Shown: piece after piece, positions 49,001-64,000 of the stretch
Numbering within the stretch: position 1 is the stretch's first letter
How the letters are laid out: each line of letters begins with the position of its first letter
From: Bolinopsis microptera
Lineage: Eukaryota > Ctenophora > Tentaculata > Lobata > Bolinopsidae
Direction of reading: 5' to 3'
Assembly (NCBI RefSeq): GCF_026151205.1
Contig: NC_087075.1
Span: forward strand, 8,173,303 to 8,237,302
DNA: 64,000 nt
Notes under the pieces: model-generated
The model's database searches: none
Told to the model about the DNA's origin: nothing
What the model saw: only the letters and a program-made list of their open reading frames with translations
Translations under genes and position numbers: made by a program

Positions 49001-52000
49001 TATTATAACAGCTTGTTAAAACACGAGATGAGGAATACCGGCTCAGACACCCAAGAGATTTGGAGATTTATGGCGGACAGATAATATCTTAGTATAAAGA
49101 CAGCGCGTCAATCGTTCATAAAAAAGCACTTTGGACTCTCCCAAAGAGATGTCTTGAGACGGAGCAATGGGAAATAGTACCATTTATGATAAAATGATAA
49201 GCTGATAGACATCAAAGAAATATAAAATAAGAATATCGAGGTCCGAGGAGACCGATCAGTGATCACATACTGATGGTTAACATGCGTGGTAAAGTTAAAG
49301 GTCACATATTACAGGGGAGGGGATCTGGGAGAGGAGGTTATACAGTAAATTGTAAAACCTCGCTAATGAATTTATCCAGAGAAAGTGAATAGAAAATGAA
49401 AAAAAGTGATTGATGAAGATGAACTGAGAAAAGCGGAATTGAAGTACAAGTGCTCAGGATCGTGAGGCTTTAAAATGCCCATTTCTACCGTCGATGAACA
49501 CGGAGTTCCGTATTTGAACAATTAAATTGGAAATCAAATAACAAACGAAAACAAGCAAACGAACCCCATGCTACATTGGTTTGAACCCACATCACACAAA
49601 TCTATATTTCGATCATTTAATACTTAAGTCATTTCTGAGCTTTTTGTCTTTGTTGTATGACAGAAATGAGCTTCTTGCAAGTTATTTCGATTGCATGAAG
49701 GTTTAGACAACTTTAGAACTATTTTACGAGAAATAAAATAAGTAATTTTAAATTTCACAAATTGGAATGCGCGCGTAGGCGCGCGCTGTCATGGTGGATA
49801 TGAAATGATGTTTTTTTATTAGGCTGAAAACGTTCGGAGTATTAAATTTAAAATCTCAATATTGCCATAGTGTCGCGCGGATATGCTGATGTTCTGTTCA
49901 GTTTTATCAATCAGTGTTTACAGATCTATTTTGAAACCTGAGGAGTTCAGTTTTTTGTTCGCGTACTGCTGTAATATCATGCCCGTCCCAATCGAGTGAT
50001 AAAATTAAAATAGAACAAATAGCTCCAGCCTCCAATCTACGATAGGATAAATTTCAAGAAAAGTTATCAAAAGTGTCAAGTTTTGTGTACAAGAAAAACC
50101 TGTAAGCCTGGTTGAAGTCCCATGTAACATGTTTAGGATCCTGATATATCAGGTTTGTGGTGATCTTGTTATTGGTCTCTGTCTTGGACGCTGTGGAATA
50201 TCCTAAATTAAGTGGGTCCCAGACATTTTAGTAACTGTCAGTAATATTCTCTATGAAGTTTTTAAAAACTACAAAGAGCTCAAAATTACAGTTTCTATTT
50301 CAGGAACTGACAACAGAACGATCAACGACGCCCAAAACTCCTCAGGGACATAATATAGGGAATGCTATCGATCAAGTGTGCAAAACTTCGTCCTGTATTA
50401 TTATATGAGTGTGGTTATATATAGTGTATGGTTTGAATATCTCGATATATTTTACTAGTCAAAAGGTATGAGACAGTTTATTAAGTTTTTCTATATCTCC
50501 ATAGCAACGTAATTCTTACTTTCTTATCGCTTGAATATATTATCCTCATAACATCCTCATAACCAGAAAGTAGAAAGTCAATTCATAAAAACAGTGTCAC
50601 CGAATAATGATCTAACCTTAACTTTACTTGTAACTATGGATACAAGACATTTAATGAGTTTAGAATTGAAGAAAATTCCTGTTCCTTTGACGCAACGCCG
50701 AAACTTCATTGGCATGAGATTTGAATATACTCGATTCTCACATTTCAGAAAGTTCTTGGGAAGAAGCTGATAACATTTTGGTTATCGATACTATGTTATC
50801 AACAAGCCCACTTCCTCAAATTGTAACAATGTTCCTAGGTATGTCGCAGAAGTAAAGGTGAACCCCACATCTTTATCAGACCACAGCTTGGTCGAAATTC
50901 AGCTTGGTTTTAATATGACTGGAAGAAAGAAGAACGAAACCAGCAAGATCGACCCAAACTCTTTCAGGGCAGTTGACTATCACAAAGCCGATTTTGTGGC
51001 AATCAGTGATTGCCTTCAGAAAGTCGACTGGCTGAAGCTCTGGGAACTCTGTGACGAGGACTTGAACGCTTTTCTGGAATTGTTCAAGCTAACAGTGCTC
51101 CAGATTACCTTGGAGTTCTCCCCAAAGAAAGAGAGTGCAGCGGAGATTACCTCAAGAAAGAGAAGAGGGAATAAGCACGTTTATGTCATGAAAAGAAGAC
51201 GAAGGAAGATGAATGCTAGGATACGTGCATTACAGGAAATGAATCCTAGCTCGAGTTTAATCCCTAAACTGAAAACGGAGGTTTCACTGCTGTGTTACTC
51301 CATACAGGAAGGGACCCTTGAGAAACTGAACAAAAAAGAACTCCGGGCAGTCGATGCAATAAAGAAGAACCCCAAATACTTCTTTTCGTATGCCAAGCGT
51401 CTCCAGAAGACCAGATCTACGATCCCGGTGTTGAGAGATGAGACTGGGGCATTAGTGGACGACCCCAGTATCAAGGCAGAGTTACTTCAGAAGCAGTACC
51501 AGAAGGTATTTAGTAACCTTATGAGTGCCGATATTGATGAATGTATGAAGAGCCAAGGATTACCTCAGGGACTGGATTCCGGATTCAACGAGCTAAGCTT
51601 CACAAGAAAAGATATCATTGAAGCATTAGGAGAACTGGATCCCTATTCAGCCGCACCTGACGGAGAGATTCCTGCTAGGATACTCACAGCCTGCAAAGAA
51701 CAACTTGCAGACCCGCTAACACTCCTCTGGCAGGAATCGTTCAGCAGTGGGTATATACCAGCGGAATTAAAGACCCAATATATCACCCCTATCTATAAGA
51801 AGGGGGACAGAACGGACCCAGCAAACTATAGACCAGTGTCTTTAACCTCGCACATCATAAAGACATTTGAGCGTGTAATCAGAAAAAACCTGGTTCGTCA
51901 TTTGGAAGAGAACATGATGATCAATACGAACCAGCATGGGTTCAGAAAAAAGAGGAGTTGCATGACGCAGCTTCTCAGTCACATCGAACAGATCTACAAA

Positions 52001-55000
52001 TCACTCAACAATGATGAAGAAGTTGATGTGATTTACCTCGACTTTGCCAAAGCTTTTGACAAGGTCGACCATGCAGTGCTGCTAGCCAAGCTTGGTCGAT
52101 ACGGAATTGGTGGTCAGGCTTTAAGGTGGATCAAAGAGTTTTTGCTAAACAGAAAACAAACAGTCGTTGTTGAAGGTCGCAAATCATCCTTCCAGCCAGT
52201 GGCAAGCGGGGTGCCACAAGGGACAGTCCTAGGACCGATCCTATTTATCCTGTACATCAACGATCTGTTGAACAGCATTAGCTATAGTAACGGATTCAGC
52301 TTTGCAGACGACACAAAGCTGATTGGGGCTATCCGAGGAATGAGTAGTGTGGAGTTACTGCAAGATGATCTCAACATAGTCATCGAGTGGTCACATGTTA
52401 ACAACATGGAGCTACACGAACAGAAGTTTGAGGTTGTAAACTACCCCCTGAATGGATCAAAAGCTCTAAGAGAGCTCCCGTTCTACCCAGAGACTGTTGA
52501 GTATACTACACCAAAAGGACACGCAATATCACCACAGGAAACTGTCAGAGACCTTGGAGTGTATGTTAGCAGCAGTAGGTCATGGGGTCCTCATATTGAG
52601 AAGACAGTTCAAGGAGCTAGAAAAATGGCGGCTTGGACATTGAGTGCCTTTAGAGACCGGTCACAAGTAGTCATGCTGACTTTATACAAAAGCATGGTTC
52701 GCTCCAAGCTAGAGTACTGCTGTCCAGTCTGGAACCCTACAAAAGTCACAGAGATACAAAAGCTGGAGACTGTACAGAGATCCTTTACTAGAAAGATATC
52801 TGGCACTGGCTGCCGTGATCTCCAGTACTGGGACAGGCTGAAGAAGCTTAAGTTGATGTCCCTTCAGAGGCGGAGAGAGCGTTATTCTATTATTCATGTA
52901 TGGAAAATTCTTAATGAACATGCTCCAAACGATACGGGCTTCGAGTTCAAGTCTCATCAAAGGCATGGTATTAAGGCAGAGATCCCAGCCATGAACAAAA
53001 ACGCACAGTTGTCGGTAAGAACAGATTACGACAACAGCTTTAGAGTTAGAGCAGCTCAGCTCTTCAACGTGCTCCCATCGGAGCTCCGGAGTATCACATT
53101 GCTAGACAGTTTCAAAGTTGGTCTAGGCAGATTTATGGAACAGTACCCAGACACAACACCGGTTCCGGGATACACTCCGACAAACGATAACTCAATGCTG
53201 AGCTGGAGGAGGACGCACTCGATGCAGTTGTCCTGAGCACTCACCAAAACGTACCAAAACGTACGTACAGTGAAGATTTAACTTACCGGACCACCAGAGA
53301 ATCTCCTTTCTGTTAGCTGCACCAGCTGTACTGTGTATCGTTACTGACTTTATCTGTAGACCTGACACGCGTGGTTGATAGTGTCAACATTGTTCAAAAT
53401 CTCAAATCAAACATATTTAGATGGCAGAGTCAATTACCATAATCCCGATGACCCCACTCCTATTCCTCCTCGTGCAGTAACTAAGAACTCAAAGAACGAC
53501 TGATAAAGCTACCAGAAGTTGCTCTTAGTTACTAGTAGTTTCATTAAGTTACCACGTCTTGTGAACATTTATTAATCCTGGTAGTAACCGATAGTTACCC
53601 TTGGTTACGCCTGATTACCCTTAGTAACCAAAAGTTACCCCTGATTACCACCAGCAACCAATATTTACCCTTAGTAACTAATAGTTACCCCTGGTATTAA
53701 CCAACAGTTACCCCTAGTAACCAATAGTTACCCCTGGTTACCCCTAGTTACCGGTAGTTGCTCCATAGTAACAGTTATCCCATTTCCCCTCAGCGCAGTT
53801 GTTAAAAGTATGGTAATCATGTCTCCAGGTAGCGAGATAAAACCTCACTATCTTCTGACTCTGGTCTTGTTTCTTGTGAAGCTCCTGGTAACCGAATATA
53901 ATCCCTGGGGAGGAATTAAAGTGAGATTTAGTGGCCGAGGGATAAGCGCTGGTTTTATGATATCTTGGATAATTTACGATTGAAAGAATGTCAACAAGCA
54001 TTCCGTTACTTCTGGCATTCATTGTCAACTTGGAGTGTCTGATTCAATCTCACCTATAGTGCCCGTATCTATGGTAGGGTACCGTTCATTATCTTTAACG
54101 TAAAACGTGCCGTCAAACTGTAACTCTTCAAACCTGAATATTTTCATTTAACTCTGTGGTTAGTAACCAACGGTTACACTTACTACAGTTATATTGGACA
54201 TCGAATATTCACATTTTCACAGCACTGTGTTACAATTACTACAGTTAGCGGACAGACCCACTTTCACCATACTAACATATGGAAAACATATCAAAGAGGG
54301 TGATAATAAGATATCCTTTTCGTAAATTCAATGATTGAGGAATTAGAATTCAATTTTCTTCATCTACAAAATATGTGAAAACAAGAGTAAAGGTGGTGAA
54401 CTGGTTTTAGAAGAGCAGCTCCACAATTTTCAGCAAGGAAATTTCCAGAAGAAATCTCTAGAATGTACCGACCTGGTTTCTCCGAGCAGAGCTACAGGAC
54501 TAGTTAGTTTGGCAGCACTTTCCTCGTACATTAGCGCTTCTAAATCCACATCATGTCCCTTAGACCGGACCCTCCACCGAATATCACCTGGCTCCCTGAC
54601 AAACATTCCAATTACATTCCAATTACATTCCAATTACATTCCAATTACATTCCAATTACATTCCAAATACATTCTAATTAACGTTCCAATGTTACTATTT
54701 ACAATACTTGTTAACTTTATTATTGAAAGTGATATTCCCAGAGGATGCTTTTAAAAATTATTATCTGATAGCCAAAATTTCTAAAGTAAAGTGAGTTACT
54801 CGACCTTAATAAGATACCAGTAAAGAAAGTCATAACGATGATAATATGATCTTGAACTAAAGTAAGTTACAGTAATATCACAATGTACCTGCACTAAAGT
54901 AAGTTACAATAATATCACAATGTACCTGCACTAAAGTAAGTTACAATAATATCACAATGTACCTGCACTAAAGTAAGTTACAATAATATCACAATGTACC

Positions 55001-58000
55001 TGCACTAAAGTAAGTTACAATAATATCACAATGTACCTGCACTAAAGTAAGTTACAATAATATCACAATGTACCTGCACTAAAGTAAGTTACAATAATAA
55101 TATCACAATGTTACAATGTACCTAAAGGTACTAAGATCCATTAGCTGACTGGTAGCGAAGTTGAACTCGCTGACTTCCTTATCAAACGGACAAATATCCT
55201 CGACATCTGCAACTCCGTCTCCGTCAGCATCGGCATCATTTACCTGGGGTAACAATAAATGTAGTTGTCAGCATCGGCATCATTTACCTGGGGTAACATT
55301 AAATGTAGTTGTCAGCATCTGCATCATTTACCTGGGGTAACATTAAATGTAGTTGTCAGCATCGGCATCATTTACCTGGGGTAACATTAAATGTAGTTGT
55401 CAGCATCGGCATCATTTACCTGGGGTAACATTAAATGTAGTTGTCAGCATCGGCATCATTTACCTGGGGTAACATTAAATGTAGTTGTCAGCATCGGCAT
55501 CATTTACCTGGGGTAACAATAAATGTAGTTGTCTGCATCGGCATCATTTACCTGGGGTAACATTAAATGTAGTTGTCAGCATCGGCATCATTTACCTGGG
55601 GTAACATTAAATGTAGTTGTCAGCATCGGCATCATTTACCTGGGGTAACATTAAATGTAGTTGTCAGCATCGGCATCATTTACCTGGGGTAACAATAAAT
55701 GTAGTTATCAGCATCTGCATCATTTACCTGGGGTAACAATAAATGTAGTTGTCAGCATCTGCATCATTTACCTGGGGTAACAATAAATGTAGTTCTTTTT
55801 TGTGTTTTTTTTTTTCAAATTCTTTCCGGTAAGTTAAGGTGTAGCAAAATGGGATATGTTTTTTTAACTATCAACATACAATAACAAAGCGCGAGTTAAT
55901 TAATTTGCAAACTTATATAAAATGCATAAGAAAAATTCAGTTATACTATGTTTGTACAAACAAACAAACAAACGAACATGTACTTAATTACAGTATACTA
56001 CTACCACTAAATTACTACTACTACTCAGTTACCACAGTAGATCACAGTTGGTATCTTTATCAATTATCCCATTGTTTATGTCTATTTCTTTACCTAATAA
56101 TCTTGTGAGCTGACAACTAATTCAATAAATTTTGGCATCGTTTTTCGGTGTTATTGTACAGACAGATCCGTCTGAAAAAATCGATCTGCCGACACACGAA
56201 GCTTTCAGAGGATTTTTGACGTTTTTGAGTCCCATTAGGTGCCCTTTATAGCTGACCAACTTTTCCAAACTTTTCCACGTGTCTTAAGGCCACTTTTTGC
56301 CACTTTACCACTTTTTACCACCTTTCTTGTTTGTCGAATATCTTTAGTTGTGAACATCGTAAAAGGATGCAGATCAATCAAGTGTGTTCATATTTTCAGG
56401 AAGAAAAACTTTTGTTGAAACAATTTTTACGTCAGATAATCAGTTAATTGGATAATTATCAATTAGCTAATTAGCAAAATTCTAAAAAATTTTTATTGGC
56501 TAAAAATGATCGGAATAGCTTAAAACACGGAGAAAAGTAGTTTTTAGAAAAACTTTGAACATTTTTCTCTTAATTTTTTTTTCGAGACTTAAAATTTCTG
56601 AAAATTCAAAATACTTTTTTCCGCCAAAAGTGATCAAATTGCATGAAACGCGAAGAAAAATGCTTTTCAAAAAAAATTAGTGAATTTTTCGTTTCAAGAA
56701 TACCAATATAGTAGTCTCATATCATGAGCAATTCAAGTACCTGTTATGAGAGAACACTGCTGCTGAGAAAAATTTGGATTATGAGATTTAGTTTAGGAAG
56801 CACTGGGTCATTTTAAGGAAATCTATATATAGTGTATATATAGTGTATATATAGTGTATATATATATATTATATATTATACAGTAGTTATATGTTCTTTT
56901 GTTGTACCTTTGCATTAGTATTATAATTTTGGTGTTCAGACTTCAGTAATGTTTTAAAAAGTTTAGTAAATGTTGTTTTCGTAATTATATTTATTCGGGA
57001 CGTTACAGAAGGAATTGATTTAATGTAGTTGGAGGAGTCCCAATTCTCCTCACGTCCATAAATGGAGTTTTCTTTTATCATATTTATAGTATACATTGTA
57101 TAATATACTAGCTTACTTCGTTTTTCGAATTAGTGGGCGTGTTCCACATCTATCTCTCCAGTAACACGTAGCAGTATCAAAACAGCAGCTCGGGTAAATT
57201 ATTAAACGGTAAGTCACGTGTCACAAAGGATATAATCGCAACATCCTGACGCTGTCTGTGTGTTGGGAGTGTATAAGTATTAAAGTATTAATTAAGTAGC
57301 AAGAGGCCATCTATATCATGTTCGTACTGTGATTACAGTCACACAAGGTATAATAGGGGTGAAAAGTTACGTGATAAAAGGAAGGCCACGTGATAAAAGG
57401 TCACGTGATAAAAGGAAGGCCACGTGATAAAAGGTCACGTGATAAAAGGAAGGCCACGTGATAAAAGGTCGCGTGATAAAAGGTCACGTGATAAAAGGAA
57501 GGCCACGTGATAAAAGGTCACGTGATAAAAGGAAGGCCACGTGATAAAAGGTCACGTGATAAAAGGAAGGCCACGTGATAAAAGGAAGGCCAGGCCACGT
57601 GATAAAAGGTCACGTGATAAAAGGAAGGCCACGTGATAAAAGGTCACGTGATAAAAGGAAGGTCACGTGATAAAAGGTCACGTGATAAAAGGAAGGCCAC
57701 GTGATAAAAGGTCACGTGATAAAAGGAAGGCCACGTGATAAAAGGTCACGTGATAAAAGGAAGGCCACGTGATAAAAGGTCACGTGATAAAAGGAAGGCC
57801 ACGTGATAAAAGGAAGGCCACGTGATAAAAGGTCACGTGATAAAAGGAAGGCCACGTGATAAAAGGTCACGTGATAAAAGGAAGGCCACGTGATAAAAGG
57901 TCACGTGATAAAAGGTCACGTGATAAAAGGAAGGCCACGTGATAAAAGGTCACGTGATAAAAGGAAGGCCACGTGATAAAAGGTCACGTGATAAAAGGAA

Positions 58001-61000
58001 GGCCACGTGATAAAAGGTCACGTGATAAAAGGAAGGCCACGTGATAAAAGGTCACGTGATAAAAGGTCGCGTGATAAAAGACGCGAGTAAGGTCTCATTG
58101 AACCAGAGGTATCAGGCAAATAGTGCGATTCTGCTCCTGCCTTAACACTAAATCGTATTATGTGCGGCAAATTTGGAGACAAAAAACCGCAATTAAACTG
58201 AAAAAAACTCTCAATCCTCATAGAAGGGTTTATGATCAGACTGGGGCTAGTTGAGCTGGTAATGACTGATAAGCATAAATGTGTAATGTGTAATGTGTAA
58301 CAAACATGTGTATATAACCCAAAGTGACTAAAGTTACTCAATTTCAATCTGTTGAGGGATTGCGATTCAGCTTGACCAGTCATTCATTTGCCAAGATTCA
58401 CCCTCTTTTGTTTTTTTCCGGGCCAGAAGAAAACTACCGACTGCCAAGGTATGATGCCAAGGCAGTCGAGACCTTTTATTGAGACCCGATATAATAATAA
58501 TCTTTTGTATATTATATGTTTTTCCTGATTTTTGAAATAATATATATAATAAAAGATATTTCATTGTCTTTTTGGGGCCTTTCTTCCGGAGTTGTGACTT
58601 GTGAGCGTTCGTGGAAACTGGCCATAAATAGTTCCTGGCACGAATTGTATCACAGCTCGGGAATCGCTTACCAATGTTTGCTAATATTGTAAATTAGTTG
58701 CTAAATTTCTTTTCCTTTTGTATCTTAAGCACTTTTGTCAGAAAACGGCAGATCTAATTAGCACTGATTACCAAATGCAATTTGTATGTCACTGGCCGAG
58801 TTTTTCACCTTTTTTCGTGTTTTTGTTAACTTTTATGATGTTTTTCCGCGCGAAAATGTTGATATTATCTGTCATCGATTTTATAGTTTTATCAAAGTTT
58901 ACCCTACTAGATCTATTAAATAATAATATTGCTATTATTTATCTTCGTCAATACATATTATTATACGCAAAATAGAAAATGCTTTTCTACACTACTGCAA
59001 AAAATCTGTTTCCAGATACCGCTGGAGAATGATATACAACGAATTTCTGCCATTTATAACACCATCCCAAAACAGCAATCCAACACCAGAATCATCTGAT
59101 TTTCAATATGAAACTATCAAATCGAGCACCAACGAAAATATATCTGAAACAAACCGAAAACAATCATCAACAAAGCATAGACTATACGGGATAGGACTAA
59201 TGGCCCTGACGAGCATCTTCGCCACCTTCAACGCATCAATAGCAAAATACCTGCAACACCTCCCAACTGGTGAGCTGGTGGTAATAGTGGGGCTCTACTC
59301 GCTTTGTGCTTCCTGTTTGGTCATCACTATGAGCGGGGTGTCTCTGTTTTACTTTCCTAATAAGAAGCTGGTCGCTGCTAGAGTTTTGGTGGGTACTGCT
59401 TCTTATGTTGCCAGAGTTTGGAGCTTCCAGATTCTCCCGTTAGGAGATGCCAGTGCGTTGGTTTCCACAGCTCCACTCTTCACAGGAGTTATAGCTAGAA
59501 TATTCATCAAGGAAACACTGAGTTTGGTGGATATTCTCTCCATGCCGGTGGGGTTATGTGGTGTAGTTCTCATATCAAAGCCTGTGATCTTGTTTAAGAC
59601 AGAGGAAGATCATGACCAGCCGCCGTGGTACAACTCCTTGGTACCTGTCTTCTCTGCTGTCACCCTAGCTATGATCAATGTAATGCAGAGGAAGCTAGGT
59701 GGATCAGTAGACAGTGTAATAATCTCATTTTACATTGTGGTGGCACAGCTGTGTGTTGGTACTGGATATGAGGCTGCTTTCTCTGGCAAATTCTTCGAAC
59801 AGCTACCCAAATGCTTGGCTCCCAGAACTCTTCTTGTGCTCTCGGGGGTTTGTCAACTTGCTTACTTTGTCACAGCTAACTTGACGTTAAAGTACGAGAA
59901 AGCTACCACCTCAACTCTCTTTAGGAATGTTGATACTGCGCTGGCGTTCTTTGTACAAGCAATAGTGTTTGGGGTGTCTGTGGAGACATTTTCGGTGGTC
60001 GGAGTGCTTTTGATTATGTTGGGAACCGCTGGCCTTACTCTAGCTAAAATATGCAATTTTACCTGTGGTGTAGAGTTCTGATTTTTAATTTTTGGGGGAA
60101 GCTTTCCTTGTTACTATTTTGCACACTTTTAGACGGAGGCAAGAGCCAATAAATATTAAATAAGGTATGATAGGTATGTACGTGTTAACATGATGTTATG
60201 AGATGTTGAAATTATGATGATTTATGAGATTACTGAATACTGACGAATCTGGAAAAATAACAAAGTCAAAAGATTTTATAACGGCAACGCGTAACGTAAC
60301 TGGCAAGCGCTCCCACCAGAATTTAGTAGCTTCTTAATCGTTGTAAACTCTTGCAGTTTTATGTACGAAAATAGGTGAAATCTTCATCTCAATGGTCTCA
60401 TTATATTCGACCCCTAATAATAATATCTTCAATCTTGCCGAATTAAAAGCATGGAAAAGGACTCAATACATTAATGACAAGCCATTTACAATGACTAATA
60501 ATAATTATAAATAAATAATATAATATATAAATAATAACGTACCATGTAGTGTGGCCATGACTTGGAGTCGTCACATATATCCCCCTTAAAGTCCTTGTCT
60601 TTATTCTCCTGACCAGGATTAGCTCTGTACACACAGTTATCTTGAGTGTTAGGATGGAAGTCTCCGTCTATATCATCGTCACAGCTGGCGAGAAAGTTGA
60701 CAGTTAGTGTTATATTTAGTTACATGATACTTGTCCTTGTCTCTTCCAACCGGATATTATCCAACTATCAGTATTTCAATCATGAGACTAATAAACAGCG
60801 AACTACTCCATCATTTGATACTAAGTAATGGGTACTTTAATAGTGATAGTGATTAGTGACCACCACACCATAATTTGACTACTTGATAACTAGTTACTAG
60901 TTACCAGTTAGTAACTGGCAGTACTAACCTATCTCCTATTCCATCTCCGTCTGTATCCCTCTGAGCAGAATTAGACTCGTACATACAATTATCACATTTA

Positions 61001-62779: not shown

Positions 62780-64000
62780 TTAACTTGTTCTTTCGCCACT
62801 GGAGGGGTCTTGATCTCTTCTGTAGAATGAATTACTAGGTCTGACAGATGTCCCTGAAGGAAATTTAACTGTTTCAAGCTTGTTCGTCACTCTTCTGTGA
62901 TAACTAAACTATTGACATTAATTGTAATGAGTTGACAAAACATTATTTATCATTACTAATTCATTAATTATGCTTAATTAATAATTATTACACATCTGCT
63001 ATTACGCATAAATGTATTATTCCACAAATTTTCTTACTTCTTACCTCGAAATATCCTAGTAGAGACATGATGAGTAACGCTATCTACAACAGTTGAACGC
63101 CCATTTAGCTGAAACCACAAGAACTCTCTAAAGCTCAGAACCGTCAGACAGTAAATGTAAAAGTTGCTGATGGTATTAAAAGAGAGGCACACCCCTGATA
63201 ATCTCAAGAAGTCTGTGTGGAAGAAACCTTGGCGGTCAGGGTAATTTGACTCTGCTATACGGTATATAGCATAAGGTAGGATTGATATACAGTACATGAT
63301 AGCCGTGAACACTGCGGTCATCATTCCCTGCCACCGCTGGGTCCCTCCACATTTCTTGGAATGTTTTCTGGATTTTATGAGGTGGAAAAGCAGTACGACA
63401 GTAACTAATATTACTATGAGATTAGGAATTACCATGAAGGTGAAAAATTGGATGGGTTTTAGTAACTCCCATCGCTTGGACGAGAAATGATAACTGCACA
63501 CACTAGTTCTACAGTCAAACCGGACATCTTTACTGTCCACAATAAGGAATATCGCAGGAACAGCCAGAGACAGAATCCAGAGGAACGCACAGCAAAAATT
63601 AGCTTTTCCTCTGGAGAGAGCACTACTGCGTAGAGGACGCTTCACTATGATGAGCTTACTAGATGTGAGAGCACAGATAAAGAGAAGACCTGCCAGACTG
63701 AAATAGTAGGTCCCATACGCGGTGAAGAAACACAGAGCATCACCCAGCATCCATCCATCCGCTACCATCGCTATAAACTTAGGGAGCACGTAGACGATCG
63801 AAACCATGAGGTCACTCACAGCTATGTGATGGATAACAGATGTTATAAAAGGATGCAGTTTGAGAGCTCTGTACTTGACACTGGCTACCAGGATGATAGT
63901 GTCCCCGATGAAGGAGGAGAGGAGCACGAAGAGGTAGTAGCTAGCCAGGGCGTATCTTTTAGAAGTTTCTATACCAAACTGGGATTTGTCGGAGTATTCT
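62780..64000 (-). CDS. Rhodopsin-family GPCR, 5' end beyond the window
   Basis: The frame is open from the right edge (EYSDKSQFGIETSKRYALAS) to 63045, where CGAG|GTAAGAAG is a strong donor. The next exon, 62853-62780, follows acceptor CCTTCAG in phase and ends TSVRPSNSFYRRDQDPSSGE before the TAA stop. Helices seen: the first from about 63950, the second with HHIAVSDLMVSIVYV, the third after the cysteine in GDALCFFTAY, and the seventh with NTISNFYIYCL. The usual D-R-Y is replaced by TSSKLIIVKRPL and NPxxY by SNFYIY, so this is a divergent class A receptor. The ligand cannot be inferred. If unspliced, the protein would stop six bases into the intron (RGKK). Confidence 0.85.

Follow-up and report, generated by a model that had tools for sequence, protein, structure and literature searches.

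A thrombospondin exon of Bolinopsis microptera with minisatellites at both of its splice junctions

The thrombospondin exon and its two arrays

A stretch of 64,000 nucleotides from the ctenophore Bolinopsis microptera (contig NC_087075.1, positions 8,173,303 to 8,237,302; hereafter the window, in whose numbering positions are given unless a contig or locus is named) contains a thrombospondin gene on its minus strand, in which one exon of 122 nt is boxed between two minisatellites, a 44-bp array at its acceptor and a 37-bp array at its donor. The exon (55122..55243, minus strand, as are all exons and junction arrays of the window below) encodes VNDADADGDGVADVEDICPFDKEVSEFNFATSQLMDLSTF(R), the R being split, and covers the final type 3 repeat of the thrombospondin together with the beginning of the C-terminal domain. 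It is supported by homology and not by RNA. The upstream exon, also a type 3 repeat (60543..60684), ends in phase 0 at ATG|GTACGT, while the exon that follows begins at the acceptor TTTGTCAG|GGAGCC and encodes REPGDIRWRVRSKG... of the TSP C-terminal domain; its first 90 bases (54506..54595) were used. The 122-nt exon and both neighbours join in frame. Joined by hand, the three-exon peptide matches COMP (3fby, expectation value E 3.5e-21) and thrombospondin-2 (1yo8, E 7.6e-19) where the type 3 repeats end and the C-terminal domain starts. Pfam gave TSP_3 at E 0.00042, under its cut-off, and a TSP_C match was located at C4:8212757-8212918 (minus), which falls inside the window and on the strand of the gene. 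Type 3 repeats running into a TSP C-terminal domain, the arrangement by which a thrombospondin was recognized, are present.

The 44-bp array was placed by Tandem Repeats Finder (TRF) at 55223-55794, with 13.0 copies and 97% matches. Each unit consists of 23 intron bases and the first 21 bases of the exon (GTAAATGATGCCGATGCTGAC, 55223..55243), and the array spans the exon-intron boundary. Read on the minus strand, CCCCAG|GTAAATG occurs in all 13 units, comprising the exon's own acceptor (AG|GT at 55244|55243) and 12 decoys, with the G of GT at 55771, 55727, 55683, 55639, 55595, 55551, 55507, 55463, 55419, 55375, 55331, and 55287. The decoy part (55244..55794) is made up of 12 full units (55794-55267) plus the intronic bases of the exon-bearing unit (55266-55244), and fills only the last 551 bp of an intron of approximately 5.3 kb. 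Four of the 44 positions vary among units; at one variable site eight units have TTTAATG, and TTTATTG is found in the remaining five, namely the unit nearest the exon, one in the centre and the outermost three.

The 37-bp array lies at 54856-55099 (6.6 copies, 99% matches by TRF). Seven GTACATTG donors were counted, the exon's own at 55121 and six decoys, GCAG|GTACATTG, at 55073, 55036, 54999, 54962, 54925, and 54888. The true donor, TTTAG|GTACATTG (GT at 55121-55120), occupies 55100..55121 together with part of a diverged first repeat, such that the next donor copy is 48 bp away and not 37. The 37-bp units hold the donor AG|GT and the intron start, with no clear exon coding bases. Since the decoys read GCAG where the exon reads TTTAG, the unit is intron sequence carrying AG|GT and does not duplicate the end of the exon. 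A first-pass annotation of this stretch had described an upstream array repeating the acceptor and first coding bases, a downstream array repeating the donor context, periods of 44 and 37 bp, and around 13 acceptors and seven donors for one exon. The upstream array and both periods are borne out by TRF, the counts are exact (12 + 1 acceptors, 6 + 1 donors), and the AG|GT junction bases are present in 13 of 13 units and at all six decoy donors; the account of the downstream array applies to the six GCAG decoys but not to the true donor with its TTTAG.

Decoy use, age of the arrays and surrounding sequence

Computed joins yielded a premature stop for every decoy. With the 12 decoy acceptors the stop falls 10 or 15 residues past the junction, and with the six decoy donors YIVTL is added after R before the stop. 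None of the 18 decoys therefore yields a longer open protein or a longer calcium loop. The earlier alternatives had been that splicing tolerates many decoys or that the arrays permit shifted splice choice, with cryptic acceptors able to lengthen or break the calcium-binding loop; the decoys are indeed present in the DNA, while loop lengthening is not supported and was rejected on account of the stops. Stops from all 18 decoys would also suit regulated poison splicing, in which decoys would be retained as a means of adjusting the amount of functional mRNA through early stops. The AG|GT bases, however, show no clear difference in conservation, in either direction, from the other positions of the unit in 13 ranked arrays, 11 of which were picked for containing an AG|GT word (mean percentile of the AG|GT window approximately 0.61 by hand arithmetic, with many ties), and a paralog on C3 has no array at the same junction. 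No clear sign of selection on the decoys was seen, and regulated poison splicing is considered quite unlikely.

The 944-bp stretch holding the arrays matched itself alone in the genome in a search that skips simple repeats and very common words. As far as this search can see, the units were thus locally born, and a dispersed repeat family was rejected on the single match. Furthermore, the equivalent exon of the C3 paralog follows TTGCAG|GTGTTTGACCGAG (also given as TTGCAG|GTGTTTGAC) at the same intron position and in the same phase 0, the end of its upstream exon is similar (CDDSTTWPQA vs. CDDSKSWPHYM in the window gene), and no TRF array was found at its junction. The upstream intron, to which this comparison is confined, is therefore older than the 44-bp array. 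This bears on the possibility that tandem duplication of an exon piece containing AGGT created the introns, a model which the AG|GT units fit and for which a potato case provides a precedent (PMC4974935). Under such a model the intron is absent before the duplication, whereas the upstream intron predates its array, and the array makes up only the last 551 bp of approximately 5.3 kb. Intron birth at the upstream junction is contradicted by the shared intron of the C3 paralog, and the model as a whole appears very unlikely.

The 526-bp intron downstream of the exon carries arrays at both ends, the second being a third array of the gene, an 11-bp unit AATTGGAATGT x 7.9 (54603..54690), which ends 7 bases before the next exon and in which the junction is not repeated. 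Within the 5.3-kb upstream intron are a CACGTG-rich 34-bp array of approximately 20 copies (57362-58080) and a plus-strand frame of 384 amino acids (58927-60081), membrane transporter-like by eye and perhaps a nested gene. A minus-strand frame of 321 amino acids (63034-63999), open at the window end and lying between thrombospondin exons, resembles a G-protein-coupled receptor by eye, and an 820-amino-acid open frame on the plus strand (50774-53236) resembles a non-long-terminal-repeat reverse transcriptase by eye.

Junction arrays elsewhere in the genome

Junction arrays were also found at other exons. Another exon of the same thrombospondin gene (L005), assigned by reading frame and with no Pfam match, has three donor copies of a 30-bp unit, TACAG|GTACATTACAT, and a thrombospondin paralog on C7 (L001; TSP_3 exon, E 6.5e-9) has a 39-bp acceptor array x 3.2. 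Sixteen further loci (L007-L018, L095-L098) were picked by pattern, as arrays with repeated donor words, and followed to adjoining exons; six gave exons matched to a domain or PDB entry, three gave open frames only, and at seven (L012, L013, L014, L017, L018, L097, and L098) no exon could be demonstrated at the array. Donor arrays were found at a dynein AAA_7 exon (L008, E 3.9e-7), at a urocanase exon (L015, approximately 95 units, E 5.1e-14), at the first exon of a CDK1-like gene (L007, x 10, PDB E 8.8e-13), and, with a 54-bp unit, at L096, where the exon has a below-cut-off sushi match (E 0.002). At L009, acceptor arrays adjoin a pair of neighbouring dynein exons, matched below cut-off to Dynein_heavy (E 1.1e-6) and AAA_lid_11 (E 0.0017). 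Exons at L010, L011, and L016 have open-frame support only, L011 with a weak 5-phosphatase-like match in another frame further along (E 0.0068, below cut-off). One unit of the dynein donor array (L008:1060-1360) has a longer copy of the exon end, approximately 34 bases, which suggests that a single junction gave rise to units differing in reach. L098 was dropped as an acceptor array on account of its downstream peptide, YDHQLHSQEF(M/L)KRYLMTW, which recurs at L099:2758-2958 (minus-strand coordinates); the two places are unrelated, only one is beside a tandem array, and the peptide is probably a dispersed element.

The boxed arrangement is not unique to thrombospondin in this genome. An exon of GNL2 (L095; PDB nucleolar GTP-binding protein 2, E 6.2e-14) has arrays at both edges, with eight acceptor units at L095:499-838 and a 38-bp donor array running from C1:1105103 to at least 1107888 (at least approximately 73 units). 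The L016 exon, known by its frame, has 3.1 copies of a 24-bp unit at its acceptor and 14 of a 48-bp unit at its donor. Together with the 122-nt exon, three of the 15 exons with junction arrays that were read are boxed, a biased rate since 12 of the 15 had been reached by tracing arrays.

These loci bear on two further explanations. If splicing were recursive, AG|GT at each unit would allow the choice of a decoy acceptor to rebuild a donor, ATG|GTAAAT, from which splicing would step on until the exon, and the arrays would erase their own mistakes. The juxtaposed acceptor and donor that this needs are found in 13 of 13 of the 44-bp units and at six of six decoy donors, and units with AG|GT also make up the arrays at L009, L010, L011, and L015. 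However, some junction arrays have no AG|GT (CAG|AT at L001, CAG|TG upstream at L095), AG is lost in approximately 7% of units at L015, and the 122-nt exon would itself be removable since it starts with GTAAAT. Moreover, 37-44 nt is very short for an intron in most animals, and recursive splice sites are, to our knowledge, described for long introns and not in the form of tandem arrays attached to a coding exon. Recursive splicing is accordingly regarded as unlikely. Expansion or collapse of repeats during assembly could also be suspected, as the copy numbers come from a single assembly; the differences among 44-bp units at four sites and the similar arrays at several independent exons make such an artefact highly improbable.

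The frequency of junction arrays was estimated from 73 Myosin_head exon matches, a sample not chosen for repeats. The junction recurs in tandem at two of these, L093 (40-bp unit, approximately 22 copies together with L099) and L092 (26-bp unit, two copies). Both belong to one gene, the source of three of the 73 matches, and the chance of both falling there is approximately 0.001 by hand arithmetic, suggesting clustering on very few data. Some TRF array lies near an edge in 17 of the 73 exons, of which L066, L082, L084, L092, and L093 were partly read in sequence and the others judged from the TRF unit. A 48-bp duplication beside the L082 donor was left uncounted because its second copy is without AG|GT. 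A search for Pkinase gave 30 loci (L019-L048), each one open stretch, 27 with nearly the whole domain and three with approximately three quarters of it, and one with an internal stop; being unbroken, and hence poor in introns, they were excluded from the junction count but included in the background word count.

Splice-like words were counted genome-wide in arrays against reversed words as controls, the counts being overlapping placements and not arrays, dominated by a few large arrays. CAGGTAWG in three near copies gave 1313 placements compared to 131 for the reversed word, and among the matches listed its arrays numbered nine on C1 with no control there, while the control occurred at three or four loci in C1-C7. 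Outside arrays, CAGGTAWG was found 15 times and its control seven times in 242,491 bases, approximately a twofold difference. AAGGTAAG gave 1556 placements in arrays vs. 8 for the control, and 8 vs. 8 outside arrays. CAGGTAA gave 11128 vs. 183, a count inflated by an 8-bp family, CCAGGTAA. CAGGAAWG gave 381 placements vs. 51 reversed, and as several of the arrays listed for it resemble CAG|GAATG acceptors it is unfit as a neutral control. Splice-like words are over-represented in arrays, with exon adjacency demonstrated for some arrays only. A scan for bacterial promoters and terminators was set aside as inapplicable to this genome.

Interpretation and comparison with known systems

Both arrays at the 122-nt exon are probably junction-adjacent minisatellites of the kind called mirages, locally born and tolerated by splicing. 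A segment across the acceptor of the old intron and the first 21 exon bases would have been duplicated in tandem, then expanded and homogenized into the 44-bp array, with the 37-bp array growing likewise from the start of the next intron, and expansion presumably proceeding by unequal exchange or slippage. The distribution of TTTATTG and TTTAATG loosely fits homogenization that spares the edges, with one central exception and only four varying positions. Splicing would most likely stay with the exon-adjacent copies, because these alone connect to the remaining exon sequence and preserve the frame. Transcripts spliced at a decoy would meet an early stop and be discarded or non-functional, and the arrays may thus persist as tolerated decoys. 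Several points weigh against this interpretation. Use of the exon-proximal copies is predicted from sequence and not from RNA, and in a single assembly copy numbers may be wrong. The 37-bp unit has no clear exon bases and is a less perfect mirage. Its decoy donors (CAG|GTACAT) fit the usual donor consensus slightly better than the true TAG|GTACAT. Finally, the enrichment of splice-like words in arrays over reversed controls is unexplained by mere tolerance.

A broader proposal, tentative and at present rather doubtful, is that minisatellites in this genome are born preferentially at splice junctions, at approximately one junction in a hundred and clustered by gene. If true, widely conserved genes such as GNL2 and the CDK1-like kinase have exons beside many near-perfect decoys, and either minisatellite birth would have to be directed to junctions, through a coupling to transcription or splicing, or the splicing machinery would need an unusual capacity to disregard or re-splice decoys. 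Of interest to specialists are the boxing on two sides, the numbers of copies and the abundance that these arrays appear to have, and the loci represent natural experiments in splice-site choice, presenting near-identical acceptors or donors many times over. At the 122-nt exon a readable message is predicted from the exon-adjacent copy only. Such loci could directly show how the spliceosome picks among equal sites. Should the abundance hold, the lineage would lend itself to genome-wide study of boundary minisatellites as a source of intron growth and possibly of intron gain.

Related arrangements have been described in other organisms. Human internal tandem repeats, with units of approximately 30 bp on average, share the position of minisatellites at exon-intron boundaries and are reported to form novel introns in recent paralogs (PMC2812944), whereas the intron upstream of the 122-nt exon predates its array. 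In potato, a new intron arose when an AG|GT segment was duplicated across a boundary (PMC4974935); the duplicated AG|GT is shared, but no new intron was seen at the 122-nt exon. Recursive splice sites, or ratchet points, are described as juxtaposed acceptor and donor, and the AG|GT juxtaposition is likewise shared (PMC8605326). A literature search of openly licensed papers found no report of such arrays in ctenophores. The first-pass annotation knew of no standard description of the paired arrangement; minisatellites spanning exon-intron boundaries have in fact been named mirages in amphioxus Adh3 and are also reported from its globin genes BflGb6 and BflGb9 (PMC3087553). Amphioxus mirages have tandem units spanning the boundary on the acceptor or donor side, many with AG/GT, are homogenized within a cluster with the edges spared, and are regularly spliced as suggested by reverse transcription PCR (PMC3087553). 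Unstable length among individuals or haplotypes is a further trait of mirages. The 44-bp array spans its boundary and, like the six decoy donors, carries these signals, and by analogy the present arrays are probably of the known mirage kind. They differ in that both edges of one exon are arrayed, in the dozens of copies elsewhere in this genome, in their ctenophore host and in being known from sequence alone, and what may be new is how abundant they are (two of 73 exons in the sample) and how they cluster by gene.

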